From Cladocopium goreaui (Eukaryota; Sar; Dinophyceae; Suessiales; Symbiodiniaceae): DNA of 64,000 nucleotides. Shown piece after piece: positions 2,544 to 59,481 of this stretch. A model generated the notes under the pieces. The model had not been told where the DNA came from, did not search any database, and saw only the letters and a program-made list of their open reading frames with translations. How positions within the stretch are numbered: position 1 is the stretch's first letter; every line of letters starts with the position of its first letter. Made by a program: the position numbers and the translations under genes. The stretch spans positions 308,074-372,073 of the forward strand of contig CAMXCT020006563.1 of the NCBI GenBank assembly GCA_947184155.2, given 5' to 3'.

Positions 2544-3106
2544 GGGACTATATCATATAGGAATATTACCAATTTTTTGGTTAATGGTTTCATTGTTAGG
2601 AATATGTTGGTAATGTTATGGTAAATTATGGTAATGATCATAGGGACTTAACATAATATTACCAATCATTGGTTAATGTTTTTATTGTTAGGAATAGGTT
2701 GGTAATTTTATGGTAAATTATGGTAATGATCATAGGGACTTAACATAATATTACCAATCATTGGTTAATGTTTTATTGTTAGGAATAGGTTGGTAATTTT
2801 ATGGTAAATTATGGTAATGATCATAGGGACTTAACATAATATTACCAATCATTGGTTAATGTTTTTATTGTTAGGAATAGGTTGGTAATTTTATAGTAAA
2901 TTATGGTAATGATCATAGGGACTTAACATAATATTACCAATCATTGGTTAATGTTTTTATTGTTAGGAATAGGTTGATAATTTCATGGGAAATTATGGTA
3001 ATGATCATAGGGACTTAACATAATATTACCAATCATCGGTTAATGTTTTTATTGTTAGGAATAGGTTGATAAATTCATGCGGAAATTATGGTAATGATCA
3101 TAGGGA
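2544..3106. repeat. 92-bp AT-rich tandem satellite, about six units
   Basis: GATCATAGGGACTTA recurs at 2636, 2728, 2819, 2911, 3003 and 3096 (period 91-93). Units contain ATATTACCAATCATTGGTTAA. A single diverged unit stands at 3563-3660. Confidence 0.92.
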
Positions 3107-3711
3107 CTATATGGTGTTTACTGTTAATGGTAATAACTAATGGTATATAATATTACCATAACTGTTATGGTAATGACTACATGGTATATAACAACTAATG
3201 GTAAAGATCCCATATTAGTGGTCATATATAGTTAATCATTAATATGTTATTCCTTAATGGTCTATGGTATATAACTCCATATATGGTATAGAATATAACT
3301 AACTGTATAATAATGTTATGAATCTTAGGAATACGTTGGTAATTTGATGGTATATTGTTAGGAATATTGGTTAATGTTAGGGTAATTAATCATTGGTATA
3401 CAATATAACTCTATAATGGTAGATGGTAATAACACCTAATATAAGTGTGTTTAGTTATCATATACCATTAATGTACCACCATGATAATCATTGGGCAATA
3501 TGTACAATATGTATATATATATATAATTCCTATGGTAAGTTAGGTATACAAACCAACATTGGTTCATGATCATAGGGACTTAACATAATATTATCAATCA
3601 TTGGTTAATCATTAATGTTAGGAATACGTTGGTAATTTTATGGTATATTATGGTAATATTGTCAGGTAAGATTATTGTATTAATATGATCAAATGGGTAT
3701 TAACCAACTTA

Positions 3712-7021: not shown

Positions 7022-7091
7022 CTGGCATCGCACAGAAAGCGCCAGGTTTTTCGCGGTTAAAAAACACCCGGGTGATGCCTCAAGTTGAGAT

Positions 7092-8035
7092 CCATGGTTC
7101 ATGTGTCACAATCCATGGTTAATGTCTCATAATCCATGGTTAATGTCTCATAATCCATGGTTAATGTCTCATAATCCATGGTTAATGTCTCATAATCCAT
7201 GGTTAATGTCTCATAATCCATGGTTCATGTCTCATAATCCATGGTTAATGTCTCATAATCCATGGTTAATGTCTCATAATCCATGGTTAATGTCTCATAA
7301 TCCATGGTTCATGTCTCATAATCCATGGTTAATGTCTCATAATCCATGGTTAATGTCTCATAATCCATGGTTAATGTCTCATAATCCATGGTTCATGTCT
7401 CATAATCCATGGTTAATGTCTCATAATCCATGGTTAATGTCTCATAATCCATGGTTCATGTGTCACAATCCATGGTTAATGTCTCATAATCCATGGTTCA
7501 TGTCTCACAATCCATGGTTAATGTCTCATAATCCATGGTTAATGTCTCATGGTTAATGTGTCATAATCCATGGTTAATGTCTCATAATCCATGGTTAATG
7601 TCTCATAATCCATGGTTAATGTGTCATAATCCATGGTTAATGTCTCATAATCCATGGTTAATGTCTCATAATCCATGGTTAATGTCTCATAATCCATGGT
7701 TCATGTCATAATCCAATGTCTCATAATCCATGGTTAATGTCTCATAATCCATGGTTAATGTCTCATAATCCATGGTTAATGTCTCATAATCCATGGTTAA
7801 TGTCTCATAATCCATGGTTAATGTCTCATAATCCATGGTTAATGTGTCATAATCCATGGTTCATGTCTCATAATCCATGGTTAATGTCTCATAATCCATG
7901 GTTCATGTCTCACAATCCATGGTTAATGTCTCATAGTCTCATAATCCATGGTTAATGTCTCATAATCCATGGTTAATGTCTCATAATCCATGGTTAATGT
8001 CTCATAATCCATGGTTAATATGTCATAATCCATGG
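7092..8035. repeat. 21-bp minisatellite, about 44 units
   Basis: Unit ATGTCTCATAATCCATGGTTA with sparse variants (TTC for TTA, GTGTCAC for GTCTCAT). As 21 is a multiple of three, the plus strand stays open (MSHNPWL repeated), but this is a by-product of the period, with no other sign of coding. Confidence 0.97.
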
Positions 8036-8381
8036 TTATGATTAGTAAGTGCGACATAATCCATGGGCTTGTTTGATGGAAATCTCGTCCGGTATGGGTT
8101 TGGTGATGAGGTGGTGCCCGAGTTTATCAACACTAAGTAATAGGCGTGGGGTACCACCTTGTGATCATAGGTGTACTTGATTGTATCTTATGACTCGCCA
8201 ATCCACCAGCAAAGAGTCGTGTTTTTGGTGACATATAGTGTCAAATCATATTCATACAGCTCCTGATTATCCAAGTATCATATTGTTTCCTGATGATCAC
8301 ACATGTTTTTTGTGGTCGCAGCTACAGAAATATGGGATCATCTGGTCATTTTTTTTCCCAGACCATCTTGGTGAGATCTAC

Positions 8382-32200: not shown

Positions 32201-35200
32201 TGGCAAAGAATGGACCAAACCGAGTCACGGTTGAACTATTTGGATCCAGCTGGGAGGTTTCCTGAAAATAGGGGTATCCCAAAATGATCAAATGGATGGT
32301 TTATTTCACGGAAAAACCCATTAAAAATTGATGATGACTGGGGGTACCCAAATTTTTTTGGAAACCTCCATTTTTTCGGTGGTCTCTATCGGAAATAAAC
32401 ATACTTTAGCATTCCCCCGATAGGCCTCTGATTCGTCCAAGCCGCAAAGTTGTACAAATCCCCCTCCACGTAATACTTCACCGCGATCGGCGGAGGAGGA
32501 ACCTGGTGGGGTGAGAGGCCCAAGACCTGAGAAGCTGATGAAATTTCCATGTGGCAAATCCAATAATGATCCATCTCCAAAATCACCATAAATCGCTTCC
32601 ATAAACCATCCCTTAAATTCTAGGTTTATCCTTGGTTTTACCACATTATTTTCCGCATCTAAGCATCATTAAACATCATTAAACTATAAATTCGAACTGG
32701 TGACCAACAACAAACACGCTGACCAAGCGCATCTGAGTGGATCCCTCGGACTTTCTCCACCAACTCTCCGAAAAAAAGGAGGCCCAATAAATGATCAAAA
32801 TGTCGGCCAAGGATATCCTTAAGGTATTGGACCCATAGCATCCTATACCGCAACATTAACCAACATTTAGCAACACTGGTTGGTGGTTTCAACCTACCCC
32901 TCTGAAAAATATGAGTTCGTCAGTTGGGATGATTGATTATTCCCAATAATTATATGGAAAAATAATCCAAATGTTCCAAACCACCAACCAGAACACAATT
33001 CCATGAGGTGCTCGTGCTTTGTGTGACTTTGTGTGTCTGAAAATTGATGGGAAGGTCCCATTCCACTGGTTGTTTGCCTCATGAATTCCGCCCGAGATCA
33101 GGCTTGCTCCCAACACCCCAGATATGTTTGGGTCGGAAACTGGGTATACCCTCTGGTTATGTCAAAATAGCTATTGAAAATGACTAGAAAGTTCGTGGAT
33201 TTTCCCATTAAAAATGGGTGGATCTTTCCAGTTCGTTATGTTAGTTCGTTTACCAGGCCGGGTACCCAAAACACATCTTTGTTGAACTCAAAAATGAGCG
33301 AATTCCCACGCCTGACGTAAGACTTCAGCATTTTCTGCAGCAAAGACTTGGTAGGTCACATAGGCGTGCTCCTGGCGTCTGCGTCTGTCGCCGGGAATCC
33401 AGCAATAAGAAACGCCAAGAGAATAGGAGTTCTTTCAGCTGCCTAGTCAGCATATGTATAAATTTATATATGCATGTATAATATGTACATGCAGAAGATA
33501 TACATAATATATATATATACGTATATATGTGAAAAGCCAATATATGCCTTGGATGTGCCTTGCAGGTGTACCAGCATGGAGACCTCGCTGTTCGACCGGG
33601 CCAATGGCTCAAGTTCCGCAAGGTGTGGAAAACAAGCAGCGCGGACGCTGCACAAATTCGAGAAGTGTAACGTTGGACGTTCATCCATAGGCACAGGGTG
33701 CCGGCTGAGCCTTTTGGGGTGTGGTTACCCCTTTTGTTGGAAACCCCGAAGGACTAGGGGAAGCTGGGTCCCTACCTTTGTAGACTCCTCCCCGAGCTAC
33801 ATTGGTAGCGGAGCCCTGGGGGCTCACGGGGTACCGTGTAAAGCCTGTTGATCCGCAATGGCGAGCAGCTCTGAAGAGAAGGGCAATTCAATTTGGTCCC
33901 TTCTGCCGAGTTTCGATCCTGCAGTTGACAACGCGCGGGAGTATGTGGAGAAGGTGAGATTCATCGAGGGGGTTTGCCCAGATCGTGACAAAGCTATGCT
34001 GGCACCACGGCTGGCGATGTTGTGCAAGGGTACAGCGTGGGGACAGGTGAAGGCATTAGATGCTGAGTCTCTCACCAACAAAACTGAAGGAGTAAAGAAC
34101 TTGCTCAAAGCCTTGTCAAGCTGGGAAGAATCAGCCGAGATGAAAACGTACGAGTTGTTTGAGAAAGCCCTGTACAAGACCAACCAGAAGGCCGATGAAT
34201 CAACCACCAGCTTCGTCAACCGACTTCAGGTGGCAATGGACGAGTTGGGAGTCGTGGATGTCAAACAGTTCCATGCCTTCTTGCACCTCAGACAAAGTGC
34301 ACTCGGAGTGGAGGACCGCAAGCGTGTCCTGACGATGACTGCGGGAGATATGAAAGTCTCCAAGGTTGAACAAGCAATGAGGACGTTGGCAACCAGTGTC
34401 TTGTCGTCCGGAGCTGAGCCCAAAAAACGGGTCTACCCAACCAACTATGTGGAACCTGAAGTTGAACAAGATGCAAATATGGCCACCACATACCACGTCG
34501 TCTATGAGGAAGATGAGATCGATGCCGAGACCCTGGAACAGATGGCCCAAAATGGGGACTCCGACGCTCTCAACATGGTGAGCTTCGAGAAAGACTTGGA
34601 AGAGTTGTTCCAAGAAGTGCCAGATCTTCAGCACGCCTTGGTGTCTTATCACGAGGCCCGAACAAAGATCTTGGAGAAGAAGAAGTCGAGGGGATTCTGG
34701 CCGCCCTACAAGGGCAAAAACAAGGGTGGTTTCAGCAAAGGGTTCAAGAAGGGATCTGGAAAAGGAGGGCTGTTAGCCCGCATCGCCCGCACGAATTGCC
34801 GTGCTTGTGGAGAAAAAGGGCATTGGAAAGCTGAGTGCCCGCACAAAGGCACCAACAACACGCAGGACAATGTGAATCTTGCGATGCACCAGGAACACCG
34901 GTTCACCCTGCCCAACAATGACCAGGATGCCCAGGTGATCTTTGAATCGATCACGGAAGATGACGAGGAGATTCAGAGCTTTGCCACTCACTGGGAGGAC
35001 TGGGATAAAAGTGGGGACCGTAAAATAATGGGGATAACCTGGGGCGATAACGATAATGGGGTAAAAAGCATGCCAGAAAGAGAAGACCATACCCAAGTGG
35101 ACATTCCGATCCACCATGCCTATTGCCTGCACGAATGCATCCCAAGGGTTCAAGAGTTTTTTGCCCACCGCCTGTTGCACAGGAAGTCACCCGGACCGAT

Positions 35201-38200
35201 GAAACCCACCTCCACTGATGCGGAGTGCCTCCATAGCAGCCTTGACATGGAGAATGTCAAACAAGCTGGCCTTGCCATTTTGGACACTGGAGCCAGCCGA
35301 AGCGTAGTAGGACACGATGTCTTGCCACATGTGTTGAAAAGCCTGCCGCCCTGCGTTCGAAACCAGATCAAAGAGAAATCAAGTAACATAGGATTCAGGT
35401 TTGGAAACAATCAGGTGACATATAGCCAGAAACAGGTACATATTCCTATTTTCACTGCGACCCAGAAAATATGGATAGTAATTGAAGTTGTCCCTGCCGC
35501 CACACCATTTTTGCTGTCCATTCAAGCCATGAAGATGCTAGGAGCACAGATCAATTTGTCCAATAATCACTGCTATTTGACAAGGATTGACCGTCAACTG
35601 AACTTACAAGAAAGTAAGAATGGCCTGTACCTCATCAGCATGTCAGAATTGTGCCTGCCTGTCAAGCCTCGTCACCAGCACAGTTTCACAGCCGAAGCCG
35701 ATCGAGCACCAAGTTTTTTTCCACCGCCAGGCCTGACTCTGCCATCCTGTGTTCACCATGCCAACACAGGGAGAAGCCATGCGCATGATCAAGAGCACGG
35801 CAGAGGCCATCATGGAGTCATTGCGCCTGTTGCTGGTGATACTGATGAGCCAGTTGGAGGTGAGAGCACCGGACCAGGAGATTGCAACGGATCATGCCCA
35901 GGTGCTGTCGAATCTTCTGAACGAGGTTCAGAGCCAGAAGGGACGCATAGAGCAACTGTCAAAGATGCTGCAGGGCAAAACGTTGTCAGGCTCACCAAGA
36001 AAAGTCAAGAGCGCTGGATCAAACAGAAGTTTCGAGATTGGCGACCAGTCGGACGCTTCATGGGATCTGGAGGAACTGGAAATGGGGAGTTTGGGCCCAA
36101 TGCCCACCACCAACATGAACGTGAACCTGCACCAGTCGACGGTCCACCGCCAGAAGATGCCCAAGCAGTCCACAGTTGTTCAGAGCTCTCCACAAAGAAC
36201 CACTGCAGCAGCGACAGGGGCGAACGATGTGCCCGAGAGCCAGATAGCCCTCACGGCCCAGGCCTTGGAGTCATGGGGCAACAAAAGAGTCTCGTGGGGC
36301 AAGACCCACAATGGGTCCCGCTTCTCAGAAGTGTACGAGCAGCACCCAAACTACGTGGCCTGGATTTCGGCAAGATCCGCAACGGCCAACGTCGCCATGC
36401 AGGACTTCATCATGTATGCTCAAGCTCGAGAAGCCCTGGAACATCGAGCACTGAGAGCCAGCGCGTGAATGCAGCACCCAAGGAGCCGGTCTATGATGAT
36501 CTACTGATTGAAAATGAAGATGAAATGAAGTGGCTCATGAACTGCATTCACCATATGCCAAGACGCACCCGTAGGATAGACCTGCTAGAGGTGTACACCG
36601 AACCAAACAGTAAGTTAGTTGATGAAGTCAGGAAACAAGGGGGTCAAGCTGTCAGATTCACAAGGGATGATGGGGATTTATCCACTCATGCCGGGCAAGT
36701 AGCTTTGTTGAGAAAGATATTCCTTCTGAATCCCAAGCATATATGGCTCGCTCCAGAGTGCCGTCCGTGGGGTCCATGGAGCAGATTCAATCAAATGCGC
36801 GGAATCACAGCCTTCAACCGAGTGCAAGAGGACCGCAGTCAAGCACAAACTCACCTGCGCTTATGTGACCTGATTTTTAAGATTCAGATTTCCAAGGGAG
36901 ACCACTGTCATGTTGAAAATCCAGGTCCCTCCAGCATTTGGCATCAGAAGGAATTCGAAAGAATATGCCGTTGCACAAAGCCAGCATTTTTCGATCAGTG
37001 TGCGTTCCAGCTGAAACATCCAGAGACTGGGGAGCTCATGAAAAAGAACACCCGTGTACAGACCTCTTCCGAAAAAGTTTGGAAAGCACTGGACAGCCGT
37101 TTTTGCAATAGGAATCATGAGCATGCCCAGATAGCCGGATCGTGTCATTTCAGGGGTCAGCGCATTCCCCTATCTCAATTTGCCTCGTTTTATCCCACGG
37201 CACTTGCCAAGAGCATAGCCAAAGCCGTAATGAGCCCGATGCCAGACCCACTTGATTTGCCGTCTGCCGCATTCGTTCATGATGGGTTTCCAGCAGTTGA
37301 AGTTGAGGGACCACCCAAAAAGAAAAGCCGGTTTCAGGTCCCAAGAGGTTTGAAACGCGAACATCAAGAAGAAGAACCACCTAGACTAGAAGATGACACC
37401 TGGAATGAAATCATGAACAGCCTGCGCCAGAGCCTGCCCAAGTCAGGCGTGCAACAATGGGATGGCCCGCACCAAGAGCTCATCAAGAAAATCCAAAGCT
37501 TGTGTCCCGAGCACCAAATCCAAGGAGTCATGGCATGTAAGGGGAGAGAAAAATTTATGACTCACCCGGATAACTTGTCCCATAGAAGAACCATAGTGAC
37601 TAGCCGGGGTAAACATGAAGTTCATGACTTAGGTTGGGAAGACCTCCGAGAAATGTCCAAGAACCAGCGCAATCGGAAAGCTTTCCCATCTCATGTCATG
37701 GTTTGTGTGTTCGGTCGACCGATCGAAGCTGGAGCCAGTAATTCAGAGCCTGCAAGGTCTGCACTAGAACCTCCCCGAGAAACGGAGGACACAATTGATG
37801 TTCCAATGGACCAACAGGATTCCATGGAAAAGCCGTGTGACAACGTAGATGTCCCAGCCAGCACATGGACCTCCGCAGCAGCAACCATCTCCGGACCAAA
37901 ATTCCTTGCGTTAGAACCGACCAAGCAAAGGGTTATCCAGAAGTTACATAATAACTTAAGCCATCCAACTGCAGAAAGACTGGCCAAGCACTTGGCAGAG
38001 CGAGGAGCTTCCACTGAGATGATTGATGCAGCCAAAGAATATCTTTGTGCCTCATGCGCCGAACGCAGACCTCCGTCGCTGAATCCACCAGGTGTCCTGA
38101 AAGAAGCACGTGACTTTAACCAGCGAATTTCTTTGGACGGTTTCGAGTGGAAAGGTCAGACTGGTTTTCAAGGGTATGTTATACACATTATCGATGAAGC

Positions 38201-41200
38201 CACTCAGTTTCACTTAGGACACCGATCATGCCGCGACACTGCAAGCACATGGAAAGTCTTTTCCGAAAGCTGGCAAGCATGGGCCGGAACGCCACAGGAA
38301 ATCATGATGGACTGTGGAGGAGAATTGGTTTCTGATGAAATGAAAAACCTTTTGCAACAGGAAGGAATCAAGCCAATCTTAACAGCCGGACCATGGCAAA
38401 GAGGTAGGGTAGAACGTCATGGGGGGGTCGTCAAAGAAATGCTGTCCCGTATTGACAACAGTAGCCCTATCAAAAATGATCGAGAGTTCGACCAAGCACT
38501 GTCCCAAAGCTTCCGAGCCAAGAATGCCATGTCATGTATCAATGGATACAGCCCCGAACAAGCTGTTTTGGGACGCGCCACAAAGTTGCCAGCCTCGATT
38601 TTAGGTGACCAAGATGACACAGCCCATCTACAAGCCACTGGCGACAGCCCAGAAGCTGCTCGTTTCCGAGCAGCTTTGGAACTCCGAACGTTAGCTAGAA
38701 AAGCCTTTGTTGAAAGTGACAATTCCCAAGCCATCAGAAGAGCCCTTCTGAAACAATCTAGAGGAGTTCCAATAGAATGGCAATGTGGCCAGCCATGCAT
38801 GTTTTGGGATCGTCGCAAGTCACCAAATATGTTGGAGAAAGGTAAATGGTGCGGTCCAGCACAAGTTGTTCTCACAGAATCCAAGACCATTGTTTGGGTG
38901 ACACACATGAACCGTTTGCTTAGATGTGCACGTGACAACCTCCGACCAGTCAGTTTGAGAGAGCTTCAGCACCATCCGACTTTCAGCCAACAAGTCGAGC
39001 TCGCGCGTATCCAACAAATGTCAAGTCAATTGCAGGCACGACTCCATGATCGAAGTGGCATGTTCCAGTTCTCAGACATGGGTGAAGACCCCATTGTAGA
39101 TCCCGAAGAAATCAGCCGTAGAGAACACACAGCCTTACAACCCGAACAAGAACCAACCCGAAGAGCTTCCAATATAGAAGTCCCTGAAATGTCATTGGAA
39201 ACTCCAGTTGAAACACCAATACCCAATGACAATTTTGAAAGCGACCATGCCGGATCTTCATATGAACCTTCACTTGCACCTTCAAACCCAGCGGAAGGGG
39301 GAGAAAACATGGGAGAAAACTCACATGTATCATTTGGGGAAGCATCCTCTGTAGGGGAGAGCCAGGGGGAGAATAGTGTAGCTCATCATGTAGCCACTGC
39401 TGATAACGTAGTCCACGATGCCTGCATAGTGGAATCTGTTCCTGATGGCCCTGTCTTACAAGGTGACGAAGACACACTTTGGACAGATGCGATTGACCAA
39501 TCGCTGGACCATTGCAGTTTTGAATTCGAGATGCCCTGGCAGCTGATGGAAAGAGTATCACATCAGCCCAAAACCCACGCCGTGCTTTTGACAACCGCGG
39601 CCAAAAAGTCCCGAGCCGAAGTGAGGTATTCCACGCTTAGCTCCGAAGAGAAGCAACTCTTCGATCGAGCTAAGGACAAAGAGCTCCGTTGCTGGCTTAA
39701 AACAAGCACCGTGAAAAGGATCCTGAGGAATCGCATTCACCCTGATAGAATCATGACCTCGAGATGGATCCTCACATATAAGCCAGACCCAACTTCACCA
39801 AGTGGGCATAAACACAAAGCCCGCCTTGTTGTCAGGGGTTACCAAGATCCGGAAATTGATCAAGTAAACACCGACAGTCCAACACTTGGAAGAGATGCCC
39901 GACAACTCCTTTTTCAAACAGTGTGTTCCTCAGGTTGGGATATCCAAAGCTTTGACATCACGACCGCATTCCTCAGGGGAAGAGCTGATGGTAGAGAACT
40001 AGCCATGGAACCAGTAAGTGAGTTACGGGACCTCCTGAAAATGGGCAAAGATGAAGTATGTTTGCTGGAAGGAAATGCATACGGAAGGGTTGATGCACCA
40101 CTACTCTTCTATCGTGAACTTCGCAAGCAGCTGGAAAGTTTAGGCTTTAGTGCACATCCTTTGGATGGATGCCTCTTCATGCTGCGAGACCCTCAGAATC
40201 CACAGAAATTGAATGGGATCCTTGGCACTCATGTCGATGATGGTATTGGGGGAGGGAACGAAGTGTTTGAAAAGGCACTGACCAAACTCCACAAAATCTT
40301 GCCCTTTGGACAAAGAGAATACCGAAAGTTCAAGTTCACCGGATTGGACATCGAACAATTGCCAGACAACTCCATTCGAATTAGCCAAGGGGAATATATC
40401 AATAAGATAGATCCCATAAACATAGCTAAGAATAGGAGAGTCCAAAAGGATGACAACGCCACTGAACAAGAAGTTCAGGACTTGCGTGCCCTGTGCGGCA
40501 GCCTCCAGTACGCTGCTGTGCACAGCCGTCCGGATCTGGCAGCAAAGGTGTCGTTTTTACAGAAAAGCATCCCTCAAGCCAAAGTTCAGCATCTTTTAGA
40601 TGGTAACAAAGTTCTGTTGGAAGCGAAAGAGACGGCACCGACTGCTATCCAGATACGTCCGCTGTCTCTGGAAGATACCACCTTTGCAAGTTTTGGTGAC
40701 GCCAGTTTTGCATCCGCCTCTCAGCTCCGAGCGCAACAGGGGTTGTTTATAGTTGCATGCAGTAAAGCACTGAGTGAAAACAAAACGTCTGACATCAGTC
40801 CTGTTGCATGGAACTCTAAGCAAATTGGCCGGGTAGTCAGGTCAACGCTGAGCGCTGAGGCGTATGCAATGAGTTCATCCCTGGATAAGCTGACATGGAT
40901 CCGATGTATGTGGGCCTTCATCCACAATCCAAGCTTTAAATGGCAGCACCCAGAAAAGTCTCTACAAGATGAACCAAAAGCACTGTTGATCACTGACTGC
41001 AAGTCCCTTTTTGATTTAGTATCCAAGTTGGCAACTCCTAACTGCCAAGAATGGAGAACAACTGTGGAAGTCATGCTGATCAAACAACAGTCAGATGGTC
41101 ATACGCAATGCCGATGGATTTCGACAGCCATCATGTTGGCAGACTGCCTTACGAAGCCGATGGATGCCAGCTTTTTACGAACTGTTTTGCATTTGGGTCG

Positions 41201-44200
41201 TTTTCGTATTTTCGATGAAGATCAGACACTCAAAAACAATACCCATAAGAAGATGGCATCAAGATGGATGACCAAGCAAGATGAAGGCACATCCAAAAAA
41301 GAAAAGACACCAGTGTGAAAAGCCAATATATGCCTTGGATGTGCCTTGCAGGTGTACCAGCATGGAGACCTCGCTGTTCGACCGGGCCAATGGCTCAAGT
41401 TCCGCAAGGTGTGGAAAACAAGCAGCGCGGACGCTGCACAAATCCGAGAAGTGTAACGTTGGACGTTCATCCATAGGCACAGGGTGCCGGCTGAGCCTTT
41501 TGGGGTGTGGTTACCCCTTTTGTTGGAAACCCCGAAGGACTAGGGGAAGCTGGGTCCCTACCTTTGTAGACTCCTCCCCGAGCTACATATATATATATAT
41601 AGTTCACCCCTTAAATATATATGTATATAGTTATATTATATATAAATATGTCCCCTATGTTTCCCTGGGGACACCTCCTGATGATGATATTTTGGGGCCA
41701 ATAGCATGCTTGTCGCATGTGACAGGAACCCCCAATCATAGTATCAGGATGGGATTGAGTTCGTAGTTTCTGTTTTCTTTCAATGATTTAACAATGATTT
41801 AAGTAATGTGGTTGAAACAATGCCATAAACTACCCATTTGGGAATGGTTTATACCATCTATTTATGGTGATTTGGGGGATGGTTTATTCTTGTTTTAACC
41901 ACATTATATACTGTATATACTCATGTACCCATAGAGCTGATTGACAATCATCCAAAGTGCAACCAGTCATCATTCTCTCCAGCGATGAAGAGAAATGGAA
42001 TACGACCGGTCGGATGTCACAAGTGCGGATGGCGAGTTTCATCTGCGGATTGGATGGTACGTACCATCAGAAAATTGAACCACCAACAGCAAGAGTTCAG
42101 AACACTTCAAACCTCTCACACAGAAAGATACCATGGTTTTTCTAATCGTCATAAGTCATTTAAAAAAAAAACAAACGGACTCAAACGGCTGGTAGGCTTA
42201 CTGATGGACCCTCAAGTCGTGGCGAGCCACGAGGCGAGCCACGAGGCTTCAATCGGCCAGGAAGACGAATTGAAATCAGTGGATTGAGTCGTGCACTTCC
42301 TAAAAATCATTGTGGTGCCGGCTTTATGTTGCTTTAGTGAAGATTATATAATGTATAATATACAGTAATAATCAGTAATACAATTTAACTCATGACAACA
42401 TGGGATTCCCGAAAACTTCGATCATTGGAGTGTGACCCAAAAACTACTTAATGTCAACCCTGGATTAATAAAGCCCTAGGTTGTTTCATTGGGGGAATAG
42501 CATTTCAGTATCAGATTATGACTATTAGGGGAGTACCCCCCTAATCAATAAACTATGGTTTTAATTTATCCGGGGTTGACATTACCATCATTTACGTCGT
42601 GACGTCCAAATGTATGGTCGACCCGCTCGCCGCCGCTCGCCTCAACAAGGTGAGAGAAGTTGTACCTGCTCAAGGTGAGTCTCCCTAGATCGCTAAGTTG
42701 AATCATAACTTGGTTAACGTTTGGGTTAAAAAAAGGCTTTATAAAGGGGATGTACTACTACATTTAATATCATTTAATGGGCGTATAAAAACAAACTTAT
42801 AACATCTTTTTTTTACGTCTTATACCTGGGGGGCAAGAGCTTGTATGTTGTTATGGTTCAGTATTGGTCCCGTACTAACCTTCTGAACCATCGCTCGGCA
42901 AGGGTAGGTGTCAGTCTATTACACCCCCATCATTGTACTTGTTTTTCATTCAAATAGCTTGAGAATCATCACAACAACTACCCTCTGGTAAACTAACATA
43001 GCTATTGAAAATGACCATTTATAGTGGATTTACCCATTAAAAATAGTGATTATCCATAGCTTTTTGTATGTTTACCAGAGGGTAGTTTCACAATGTTTCA
43101 CAATGTTGACTGGAATCCTTCCCAATAGATTTCCAACCATCGAAAGTTTCACAGGCCTTATAGGGCGACCCCCTCCTGGAACCATGATTTTGTCCTCGGG
43201 ATCCGGACGCATTCTCCGGGCTCAGGATGAAGAGTCCCGTGATGATCCAGTAATAAACCAGCGCCTTCCGCAGTTACCAGAGCTGTTTTTGTTCACTCAA
43301 AATGGGGGAAATGTGGAGAAGAGATGTGGAAAAGTTTGCGGATGTTATTATACTGAGTCATCAAGTTTCAGAATTGTGCGCAATTCTGGATATTTGACAT
43401 CCAGTTCATGAAATGGATAGTCCCATCCATGACATGTCGGTTTCTCTGGGAAGCAGCTTCCAATGGGATGACTGGTTTTCACAGTTATGGCCATGGCTAT
43501 CAGTTATAAGTACTAACAAGTCACCCCATTTAATGTATTTCATCCCATAGAAATAACCAGTTATAACTGGTTTTTATGGCCATAACTGCAGGAATTCAGG
43601 ATATCGCTGGTGGTTTTTGGATCCAATGTTTTTCTGGTCGCGTGTTCTTTAAAAAAATCTCTACCACATGGCTAAGAAGCTAGAAGCTACCCTCTGGTAA
43701 ACTAACATAGCTATTGAAAATGGCCATTTATAGTGGATTTTCCCATTAAAAATGGTGATTTTCCATAGCTACGTTAAATTACCAGAAGCTAATCAAACCA
43801 ATCAAACTTGGAGTGCAATTTAATGTGCCGTTAAACCTCGTGGTCTCAACGACAAATATTACAGTCGTTGGGGATCATCATCGCAAATATATTGCTGAAA
43901 ATAAACCATGTTGAAACATGTTGAAATCACCAACTAGAAATTATTTCATATATCCAACATTATCCAACTAGAAAGTTTCACATAGAAGATATACAATTTG
44001 ATATATGTTGAAATCACCTTAACTAGATTGCCTGGCACCCAAAGCTCACCAAACTCTTTTTGGTGAATCGAATCTTCCCCCCTTTTTTGATGACTCCTTT
44101 TTGGCATGGGAATGTCTAGCTGAAATCATCCAGCGTTTTTGGGATCCCCCCCAAAATGATGGAACCATCACAAAAAACCCTATGTTGATCATGGTTGATC

Positions 44201-57412: not shown

Positions 57413-57520
57413 TACCCTCTGGTAATTTAACATAGCTATTGAAAATGGCCATTGAAATAGCGAGTTTTCCCATAAAAAATTGTGATTTTCCATAGTTATG
57501 TAAACGTTTACCAGAGGGTA
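57413..57520. mobile_element. Family A MITE overlapping the end of the repeat gene
   Basis: Canonical ends and TA. Its right end read on minus, ACCCTCTGGTAA, supplies the TAA that closes the glycine-rich ORF. Confidence 0.92.
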
Positions 57521-59324
57521 TGTACCCAAATATTGTAGACATGAGAATTTTTCGGGGGATCAAAGCTGAAGTCAAGACACCCAGCAGTGGAATTCATCCC
57601 AGCATCGGCACCAAAGCCGCCCAAGCCATTTCCACCACCATTCAAGGAGCCGAGTGGCTTTAGGACCAAACCACCATCATTGCCCTGATTGCCAAAAGGC
57701 ACTGGCTCACTAGGGCCACTGCTGGCGTTGTCACTCTGCAGTATGCTCCGAAAGTCGGGAGGTCTCATCCGTCTTTCTCTACTCAATCCCCCGCCACCAA
57801 CACCACCAGCGGCCTGCTCCCCGAAGCCACCAATGCTTTCAGGAACCTCATCCGCTGAATGCAGTGGTTTGAGCGCTGGTCCACTAGCAAAGTCATTCTG
57901 CTGGGACAAGCTAGGAATTGCAGCTCCTGCATTGAGTGCAGAGCTGGTATCCGTCTGCATCTGGAAATTTGATGGCTTCAAATTCATCCCAGCATCGGCA
58001 CCAAAGCCGCCCAAGCCATTTCCACCACCATTCAAGGAGCCGAGTGGCTTTAGGACCAAACCACCATCATTGCCCTGATTGCCAAAAGGCACTGGCTCAC
58101 TAGGGCCACTGCTGGCGTTGTCACTCTCCAGTATGCTCCGAAAGTCGGGAGGTCTCATCCGTCTTTCTCTACTCAATCCCCCGCCACCAACACCACCAGC
58201 GGCCTGCTCCCCGAAGCCACCAATGCTTTCAGGAACCTCATCCGCTGAATGCAGTGGTTTGAGCGCTGGTCCACTAGCAAAGTCATTCTGCTGGGACAAG
58301 CTAGAAATTGCAGCTCCTGCATTGAGTGCAGAGCTGGTATCCGTCTGCATCTGGAAATTTGGTGGCTTCAAATTCATCCCAGCATCGGCACCAAAGCCGC
58401 CCAAGCCATTTCCACCACCATTCAAGGAGCCGAGTGGCTTTAGGACCAAACCACCATCATTGCCCTGATTGCCAAAAGGCACTGGCTCACTAGGGCCACT
58501 GCTGGCGTTGTCACTCTGCAGTATGCTCCGAAAGTCGGGAGGTCTCATCCGTCTTTCTCTACTCAATCCCCCGCCACCAACACCACCAGCGGCCTGCTCC
58601 CCGAAGCCACCAATGCTTTCAGGAACCTCATCCGCTGAATGCAGTGGTTTGAGCGCTGGTCCACTAGCAAAGTCATTCTGCTGGGACAAGCTAGGAATTG
58701 CAGCTCCTGCATTGAGTGCAGAGCTGGTATCCGTCTGCATCTGGAAATTTGATGGCTTCAAATTCATCCCAGCATCGGCACCAAAGCCGCCCAAGCCATT
58801 TCCACCACCATTCAAGGAGCCGAGTGGCTTTAGGACCAAACCACCATCATTGCCCTGATTGCCAAAAGGCACTGGCTCACTAGGGCCACTGCTGGCGTTG
58901 TCACTCTCCAGTATGCTCCGAAAGTCGGGAGGTCTCATCCGTCTTTCTCTACTCAATCCCCCGCCACCAACACCACCAGCGGCCTGCTCCCCGAAGCCAC
59001 CAATGCTTTCAGGAACCTCATCCGCTGAATGCAGTGGTTTGAGCGCTGGTCCACTAGCAAAGTCATTCTGCTGGGACAAGCTAGGAATTGCAGCTCCTGC
59101 ATTGAGTGCAGAGCTGGTATCCGTCTGCATCTGGAAATTTGGTGGCTTCAAATTCATCCCAGCATCGGCACCAAAGCCGCCCAAGCCATTTCCACCACTG
59201 TCCAAGGACGCACCAGGGCCACTGCTGGCATTGTCACTTTGCAGTATGCTGCGAAAGTCGGGAGGTCTCAAATGCCCTGGTTTTGCCCCTCCACCGGCTC
59301 CGGGATTGCCAAAGCCGGCATAGC
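57508..59324 (-). CDS. Glycine-rich protein of 130-residue tandem repeats (long exon)
   Basis: The frame is open on the minus strand from an acceptor-like CCCCAG (exon start 59324, YAGFGNPGAGGGAKPG) to TAA at 57508. Four 130-residue units carry MRPPDFRSIL, SDNASSGP, GGLVLKPLGSLNGGGNGL, GGFGADAGMNLKP, TDTSSALNAGAAI, SLSQQNDFASGPALKPLH and GGFGEQAAGGVGGGGLSRERR. There are no membrane segments or known domains. The last part leaves the repeat (STAGCLDFSFDPPKNSHVY). The stop codon lies in the end of the family A MITE at 57413-57520, so the true 3' end may be a splice donor before it. Function unknown. Confidence 0.7.
57589..59170. repeat. 390-bp coding tandem repeat in ABAB order
   Basis: Units start near 57689, 58079, 58469 and 58859, nearly identical over 390 bp. 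Units 1 and 3 share CTGCAG and GATGGC variants; units 2 and 4 share CTCCAG and GGTGGC variants, so a 780-bp dimer was itself duplicated. One private change separates unit 2 (CTAGAAATTG). Confidence 0.93.
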
Positions 59325-59481
59325 CTGGGGTTTGTTCATGTTTGTTCTAGATTCCTCCAATTAACGCGAATCAACCAATCAAAATGACATCAAAAAAAGA
59401 AAAAGAACCATCAACATCTTCGCAGTATAGCTTAGCCACATTTGTTTTGTGGAGCATCAATAAGTTAAAACACAAAATGTC

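Follow-up and report, generated by a model that had tools for sequence, protein, structure and literature searches.

A probable overprinted gene in the +1 frame of a copia-type retrotransposon polyprotein from Cladocopium goreaui

The 64,000-nt stretch of Cladocopium goreaui DNA analyzed here (the window) contains a copia-type LTR retrotransposon that very probably carries a nested gene in the +1 frame inside its polyprotein frame, with selection on both frames; from sequence comparison, the probability of this reading is put at roughly 90%. The 236-aa +1 ORF (ATG 35758 to TGA 36466–36468) would be an ancient overprinted accessory gene, placed between the protease and the domain preceding the integrase and wholly nested. 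Judging by the divergence of decoded site classes, constraint lies on the +1 protein, and the polyprotein stays open across the overlap while conserving its residues only loosely.

Complete nesting of one gene within another is familiar from compact viruses, but in a family of LTR retrotransposons, and in what is probably a large protist genome, a conserved case within the polyprotein is unexpected. Annotation that keeps only the longest frame would miss it. With its many relatives, the gene is a natural test case for two frames sharing one DNA, one of them tight and one mainly open, and it is a concrete candidate for an accessory protein, with a subgenomic mRNA, in such elements.

The host element

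The element consists of two LTRs and a single long polyprotein frame (Table 1), and there is one copy of it in the window. Over their full direct repeats the LTRs show one difference in 275 positions, the near-identity looked for in a Ty1/copia element. The order along the polyprotein is Gag, protease, overlap, a domain of unknown kind, integrase, and reverse transcriptase; the integrase lies 5′ of an RVT_2-type reverse transcriptase, as in Ty1/copia, although the rve match itself is below the Pfam cut-off. Pfam gave no protease match in the window, and the domain at 36480–37250 matched nothing in PDB and nothing above cut-off in Pfam. The polyprotein stop codon sits within the 3′ LTR (41314–41318).

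Table 1. Features of the element in the window. Positions are those of the 64,000-nt stretch.
Feature	Position	Strand	Remarks
5′ LTR	33528..33801	+	TG...CA, 274 nt; direct repeat extends one base more, to 33802
Polyprotein ORF	33858..41318	+	Open from 33852, first ATG 33858; frame of 2488 codons
CCHC zinc knuckle (Gag/nucleocapsid)	34797..34844	+	Pfam PF00098, E 3.3e-4, 21.1 bits (cut-off 20.8)
Protease region	35271..35660	+	Limits drawn by eye; LDTGAS motif at 35280; conserved in relatives
Candidate splice acceptor	35714..35730	+	Seven T, then CCACCGCC, then AG
Polyprotein-frame reading of overlap	35757..36467	+	H/G/R/S/P-rich, loosely conserved
Putative overlapping +1 gene	35758..36468	+	236 aa; ORF open from 35737, first ATG 35758
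N-terminal helical part of +1 protein	35767..35982	+	Two predicted long helices; AlphaFold2, low confidence, mean pLDDT 50.1
Conserved C-terminal domain of +1 protein	36250..36465	+	From alignment; LTAQALESWGNKRVSWGKTHNG..F.EVY....YV.WI.AR....AMQDFI; faint likeness to ExoX-like_C, under cut-off
Conserved polyprotein domain of unknown kind, 3′ of overlap	36480..37250	+	IDLLEVY ... APEC.PW; anchor for relatives
Integrase core	38118..38384	+	Pfam rve, E 2.3e-6, 28.2 bits, under cut-off of 32.6
Reverse transcriptase RVT_2 (copia type)	39747..40409	+	Pfam PF07727, E 2.9e-17, above cut-off
3′ LTR	41314..41587	+	TG...CA; direct repeat extends to 41588

Elsewhere in the window there are three repeat regions. 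A 612-aa open frame on the minus strand (57508–59346), with no Pfam match above cut-off, consists largely of 4.1 copies of a 390-nt tandem repeat, with 99% matches; a tandem array at 7090–8038 has a 21-nt unit (ATCCATGGTTAATGTCTCATA), with 41 copies in 7090–7935; and another at 2562–3108 has a 92-nt unit in 5.9 copies.

The +1 frame in the window

The +1 ORF is bounded by TGA codons at 35734–35736 and 36466–36468 and lies wholly within the polyprotein frame (33852–41318). An earlier note on this DNA, made by eye, had described it as open for some 240 codons between protease and integrase, with about 23 codons ending in T and none of these followed by a codon starting AA, AG, or GA, although about a quarter of codons start that way, so that five or six stops would be expected in the polyprotein frame. 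These estimates hold up well on exact counting: the frame is 243 codons long (35737–36468), 25 of the 243 end in T, none of these 25 is followed by AA, AG, or GA, and 25.1% of codons have such a start. When the +1 codons are shuffled synonymously, the mean is 5.55 polyprotein-frame stops, with a probability of 0.00075 of finding none. Shuffling codon order instead gives a mean of 6.25 (P = 0.00055 for zero stops), and redrawing the +1 codons with the codon usage of the flanks gives a mean of 12.8, with zero stops in none of 20000 draws. In the reverse test, where polyprotein codons were varied and +1 stops counted, the probability of none was 0.001 under the codon usage of the flanks and 0.02 under that of the overlap itself.

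At +1 sites where T is a synonymous choice, it is used in 0 of 41 stop-making contexts vs. 25 of 126 others (p = 0.00045); the polyprotein flanks have no significant T avoidance (30/131 vs. 88/308, p = 0.13; 109/320 vs. 280/813, p = 0.48).

The suggestion that the +1 frame also has the better codon bias survives only in part. By codon log-odds it scores above the polyprotein frame in the overlap (0.076 vs. 0.036) and comes within the range of the flank blocks, at its low end (0.073–0.164). This leans toward +1 as the older frame, but off-frame readings of the downstream flank reach 0.091 too. By purely synonymous bias +1 is not favored (0.028, vs. 0.045 for the polyprotein).

Relatives of the +1 protein

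Searching ~5.8 billion proteins with the +1 protein returned 15 matches at E ≤ 0.01. Eleven of these (P0001–P0011) are stand-alone proteins of 201–236 aa with 48–92% identity, the highest being P0001 at 92% to the window. Their C-terminal ends agree to within 0–1 residue; six share a start to within about one residue, and the other five begin at a later Met. The remaining four matches are +1 text mixed with other text. For the family alignment, ten of the 15 matches were aligned with the window protein, P0003 and P0012–P0015 being dropped as shifted, fused, or partial. As expected for an overprinted gene, then, the second ORF is both open and conserved in related elements.

Relatives in the polyprotein frame

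In all, 139 proteins were fetched, 126 of them polyprotein-frame relatives and the other 13 being P0001–P0012 and P0014. The polyprotein frame is open between the protease anchor and the downstream anchor in 113 of the 126. The other 13 have one anchor each (10 the first, 3 the second), which is compatible with broken or partial records. By eye, the stretch between the anchors resembles off-frame text in distant relatives too. Freedom of the host frame from stops is thus found in 113 relatives as well as in the T avoidance of the window, with the reservation that the search favors open frames. Databases of predicted-ORF proteins do so in general, and are blind to the frequency of broken copies, so that free breakage of the frames may go uncounted there. 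Relatives at the DNA level were sought among scanned viral contigs and bacterial and archaeal genome contigs, where none was found, and in plasmids, where the search was empty.

In five relatives (P0101, P0113, P0114, P0120, and P0134) the stretch from protease to anchor is 620–636 aa long, vs. 282–465 aa in the other 108. In P0101 and P0113 the longer stretch includes additional in-frame sequence with a motif of the H-x-D type and, by eye, the look of an iron-dependent oxygenase; this sequence was not named by Pfam in either, nor by PDB in P0101.

Both frames in one DNA

Whether a single DNA can encode a given +1 protein together with a given polyprotein was examined with a joint-coding test. 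Five pairs fit almost throughout without gaps: P0001/P0027 (235 of 236 residues), P0004/P0028 (203 of 204), P0009/P0029 (217 of 218), P0006/P0032 (210 of 215), and P0008/P0034 (211 of 217). P0029 is also the best partner of P0007 (0.88), but was paired with P0009. Two further pairs fit worse (200/217, and 195/221 with gaps). A further lineage is represented by P0116, a record passing into the +1 frame, whose tail fits P0036 at 204 of 206 aligned residues. Scores outside the close pairings, within the top-four lists, are 0.18–0.40, and no close polyprotein partner was found for P0002, P0003, or P0011 (best 0.35–0.40). Decoding a pair presupposes an open polyprotein frame, so the stop-avoidance counts of such pairs are not independent.

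For a broader view, each polyprotein stretch was threaded, i.e., fitted to the +1 family profile and compared with its own shuffles. At z ≥ 3, the polyprotein text could encode the +1 family in 88 of 113 relatives; the controls at this threshold were 0/113 for the other off-frame, 0/90 upstream, 0/86 downstream, and 1/113 reversed. By a looser measure, scoring above all 30 shuffles, the overlap gave 96/113 and the controls, in the same order, 1/113, 3/90, 3/86, and 9/113. Among the 113 are 41 relatives of at least 2200 aa, 30 of which have the signal. When the C-terminal domain alone was threaded, 11 of the 25 misses reached z ≥ 3 (five of them just 3.1–3.6), with 1/25 in the reversed control. 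By either threading test the signal is absent in 14 of the 113 relatives, and none was seen in P0019, an 83-residue record outside the 113.

An ATG could be encoded at the expected position in 62 of 88 relatives and not in the other 26 (these 88 were chosen by a separate criterion and share 85 members with the z ≥ 3 set). At each of 20 upstream places a start is possible in 0–5% of relatives; at some places inside the gene it is also often possible, with 26, 38, and 28% at 6, 7, and 9 codons on.

Openness by chance alone was considered as an explanation, and is rejected on the shuffling results, the stand-alone relatives, joint coding, and threading. Because homology was the basis for collecting the relatives, they do not count as independent samples, and the frames were separated by a site-class test instead.

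Which frame selection holds

Base-level divergence was decoded from pairs of protein records for five elements and compared with the window. Selection on a second protein, which an overprinted gene should show, appears in these decoded pairs as a difference among site classes. In gap-free blocks, +1 position 2 is slowest, position 1 next, and position 3 fastest in all five window comparisons; against P0009, for example, divergence at positions 1, 2, and 3 is 44/128, 33/128, and 52/116. When all columns are used, every one of the 15 pairs has its highest divergence at +1 position 3, and 14 of them have the lowest at position 2.

Protein identities have the same tendency. For the six pairs other than P0001/P0027, identity to the window is 52–62% for the +1 protein and 35–42% for the polyprotein reading of the overlap, compared to 61–72% for the protease and 55–71% for the downstream part. 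Together, the site-class order and the contrast in identity indicate that the +1 protein is the one being kept. Identity at fourfold +1 sites is at or above the expectation from composition (e.g., 10/26, 0.38 vs. 0.23; 7/25, 0.28 vs. 0.25), so that selection on the polyprotein reading at the level of residues is weak or unclear, beyond its staying open.

The earlier note's proposal that selection keeps both frames open is therefore supported, by the stand-alone +1 ORFs, the 113 open polyproteins, and the pairs that fit one DNA. As a statement about selection on both frames more generally it needs qualifying: both are open, but the constraint is unequal. The search for broken or single-frame relatives that the same proposal invited turned up the 13 one-anchor records above and six mixed-frame records discussed below.

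Alternative explanations

If the polyprotein frame alone were coding, the +1 ORF could be a by-product of conserved sequence and base composition. Long incidental frames do occur, with antisense ORFs of 174–190 aa in the same element; homologous DNA will carry homologous off-frame text; and synonymous codon bias alone does not favor the +1 frame. A by-product should not, however, leave the polyprotein's wobble sites (+1 position 2) as the slowest and its first positions (+1 position 3) as the fastest, nor the polyprotein reading much less conserved than the +1 reading, nor a possible +1 start at a common place in most relatives, and this explanation is given very little credence. Equally improbable is that the region belongs to a single-frame polyprotein in most elements, with the window copy shifted between two compensating indels. 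The evidence for it is a set of six records in which +1-family text is joined in frame to polyprotein text (P0013, P0014, P0015, P0116, P0118, and P0082), apparently frameshifted copies or, for P0013 and P0014, gene models fusing the two; in P0082 the joined stretch is short and was recognized by eye. Among these P0116 alone extends over the greater part of the +1 profile (188 positions), and its sequence runs out close to the +1 stop, short of the downstream domain. None of the 113 two-anchor polyproteins has an in-frame match to the +1 profile at E ≤ 10, and the geometry of the window recurs in the 88 relatives identified by threading.

A different question is how a +1 protein would be made. 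Frameshifting is common in LTR elements, and the +1 frame of the window is open for seven codons ahead of its ATG, as would suit programmed +1 frameshifting of the polyprotein in place of initiation at an AUG of its own. Against this, a TGA closes the frame 21 nt ahead of the ATG, the preceding text varies among relatives, and the start codon is possible at a common place in the 62 relatives noted above. Frameshifting is considered unlikely, if less so than the two explanations above. For the nested gene, translation would begin at its own AUG, and from the sequence comparisons this is probably how the +1 protein is produced.

Expression and possible role of the +1 protein

There are 43 ATGs between the 5′ LTR and 35758, making it unlikely that this start is reached by plain scanning. 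Shortly upstream is an acceptor-like AG (35729–35730), which among 622 AG sites ranks first for its T run and second both for its pyrimidine run (a tie) and for pyrimidine content; the +1 start is the first ATG to follow it, whatever the frame. This ranking, together with the position of the next ATG, suggests a spliced or trans-spliced mRNA, as read in one DNA, that of the window. AUG 35758 would then be reached on a subgenomic mRNA, spliced or spliced-leader trans-spliced, with its acceptor near 35730, a route to which the sequence lends somewhat less than even odds. No spliced-leader relic was found in the window with the spliced-leader sequence pattern. By their form, some gene-model names do point to a dinoflagellate host, as does the literature.

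A PPG motif, which could carry this acceptor site, precedes the start in 28 of the 88 z ≥ 3 relatives; in a control stretch the count is 1 of 88. It was considered as a general mark of the acceptor, an interpretation not adopted since so few relatives have it.

The conserved parts of the +1 protein are the N-terminal helical stretch and the C-terminal domain around ESWGNKRVSWGKTHNG. AlphaFold2 models are poor (mean pLDDT 50.1 and 59.6), and neither Pfam nor PDB gave a confident domain. Two Pfam families match weakly and below their cut-offs: MetOD2 (PF18548) in all 11 members (best E 0.0042; 17.2 bits in the window protein, cut-off 30.6), and the Exodeoxyribonuclease X-like C-terminal domain (PF20600, ExoX-like_C) in 2 of 11 (best E 0.011), with 12.1 bits in P0007 and 13 in P0116 (cut-off 26.5). 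That the +1 protein helps the element as an oligomer, perhaps by binding nucleic acid, is a guess, and less likely than not. The polyprotein reading of the overlap would link the protease flexibly to the integrase.

The widest form of the hypothesis, given somewhat less than even odds, is that one entire clade of protist copia elements has an ancient nested helper gene, with its own and perhaps trans-spliced mRNA, and that the polyprotein stretch over it is the younger. If so, the overprinted stretch of polyprotein would be kept solely for its openness, in parallel to the polymerase/surface arrangement of hepadnaviruses.

Comparison with known systems

The copy-number control factor of Ty1 is in the same frame as gag. 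It derives from gag (PMC7055915; this and the other sources below are cited from excerpts), and the resemblance is in a copia-type element having a second product within a main gene; unlike the nested +1 gene, the Ty1 factor is a product of gag itself. Other LTR retrotransposons have acquired extra domains: orchid Ty3/gypsy elements carry an m6A demethylase domain (PMC9289625), a similar addition of a protein domain, whereas the one here overlaps the polyprotein in another frame. Closer to the present host, Symbiodinium retrotransposons of the LINE and DIRS types carry DNA methyltransferases, in frame or as separate ORFs, while copia elements, the most abundant retrotransposons there, are described in the excerpted text as lacking a DNA methyltransferase domain (PMC5890265). 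These too are extra genes in dinoflagellate retrotransposons, but the excerpted text describes none that is nested in this way. The literature searched (including an excerpt of PMC11453091), with most subscription papers lying outside its scope, showed no description of nested genes in this group's copia elements.

Deltaretrovirus accessory genes lie elsewhere in the genome, unlike the gene here, which is inside the polyprotein between protease and integrase. They are comparable as small accessory genes of a reverse-transcribing element that arose by overprinting (PMC5604429). A parallel in layout is found in hepadnaviruses, whose surface gene sits inside the polymerase gene with a shift of one nucleotide (PMC5604429): in both cases the shifted gene lies within a larger frame of a reverse-transcribing element. 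The element here is an LTR retrotransposon, however; nothing marks its nested protein as an envelope protein, and the likeness is one of arrangement, with no relation claimed.
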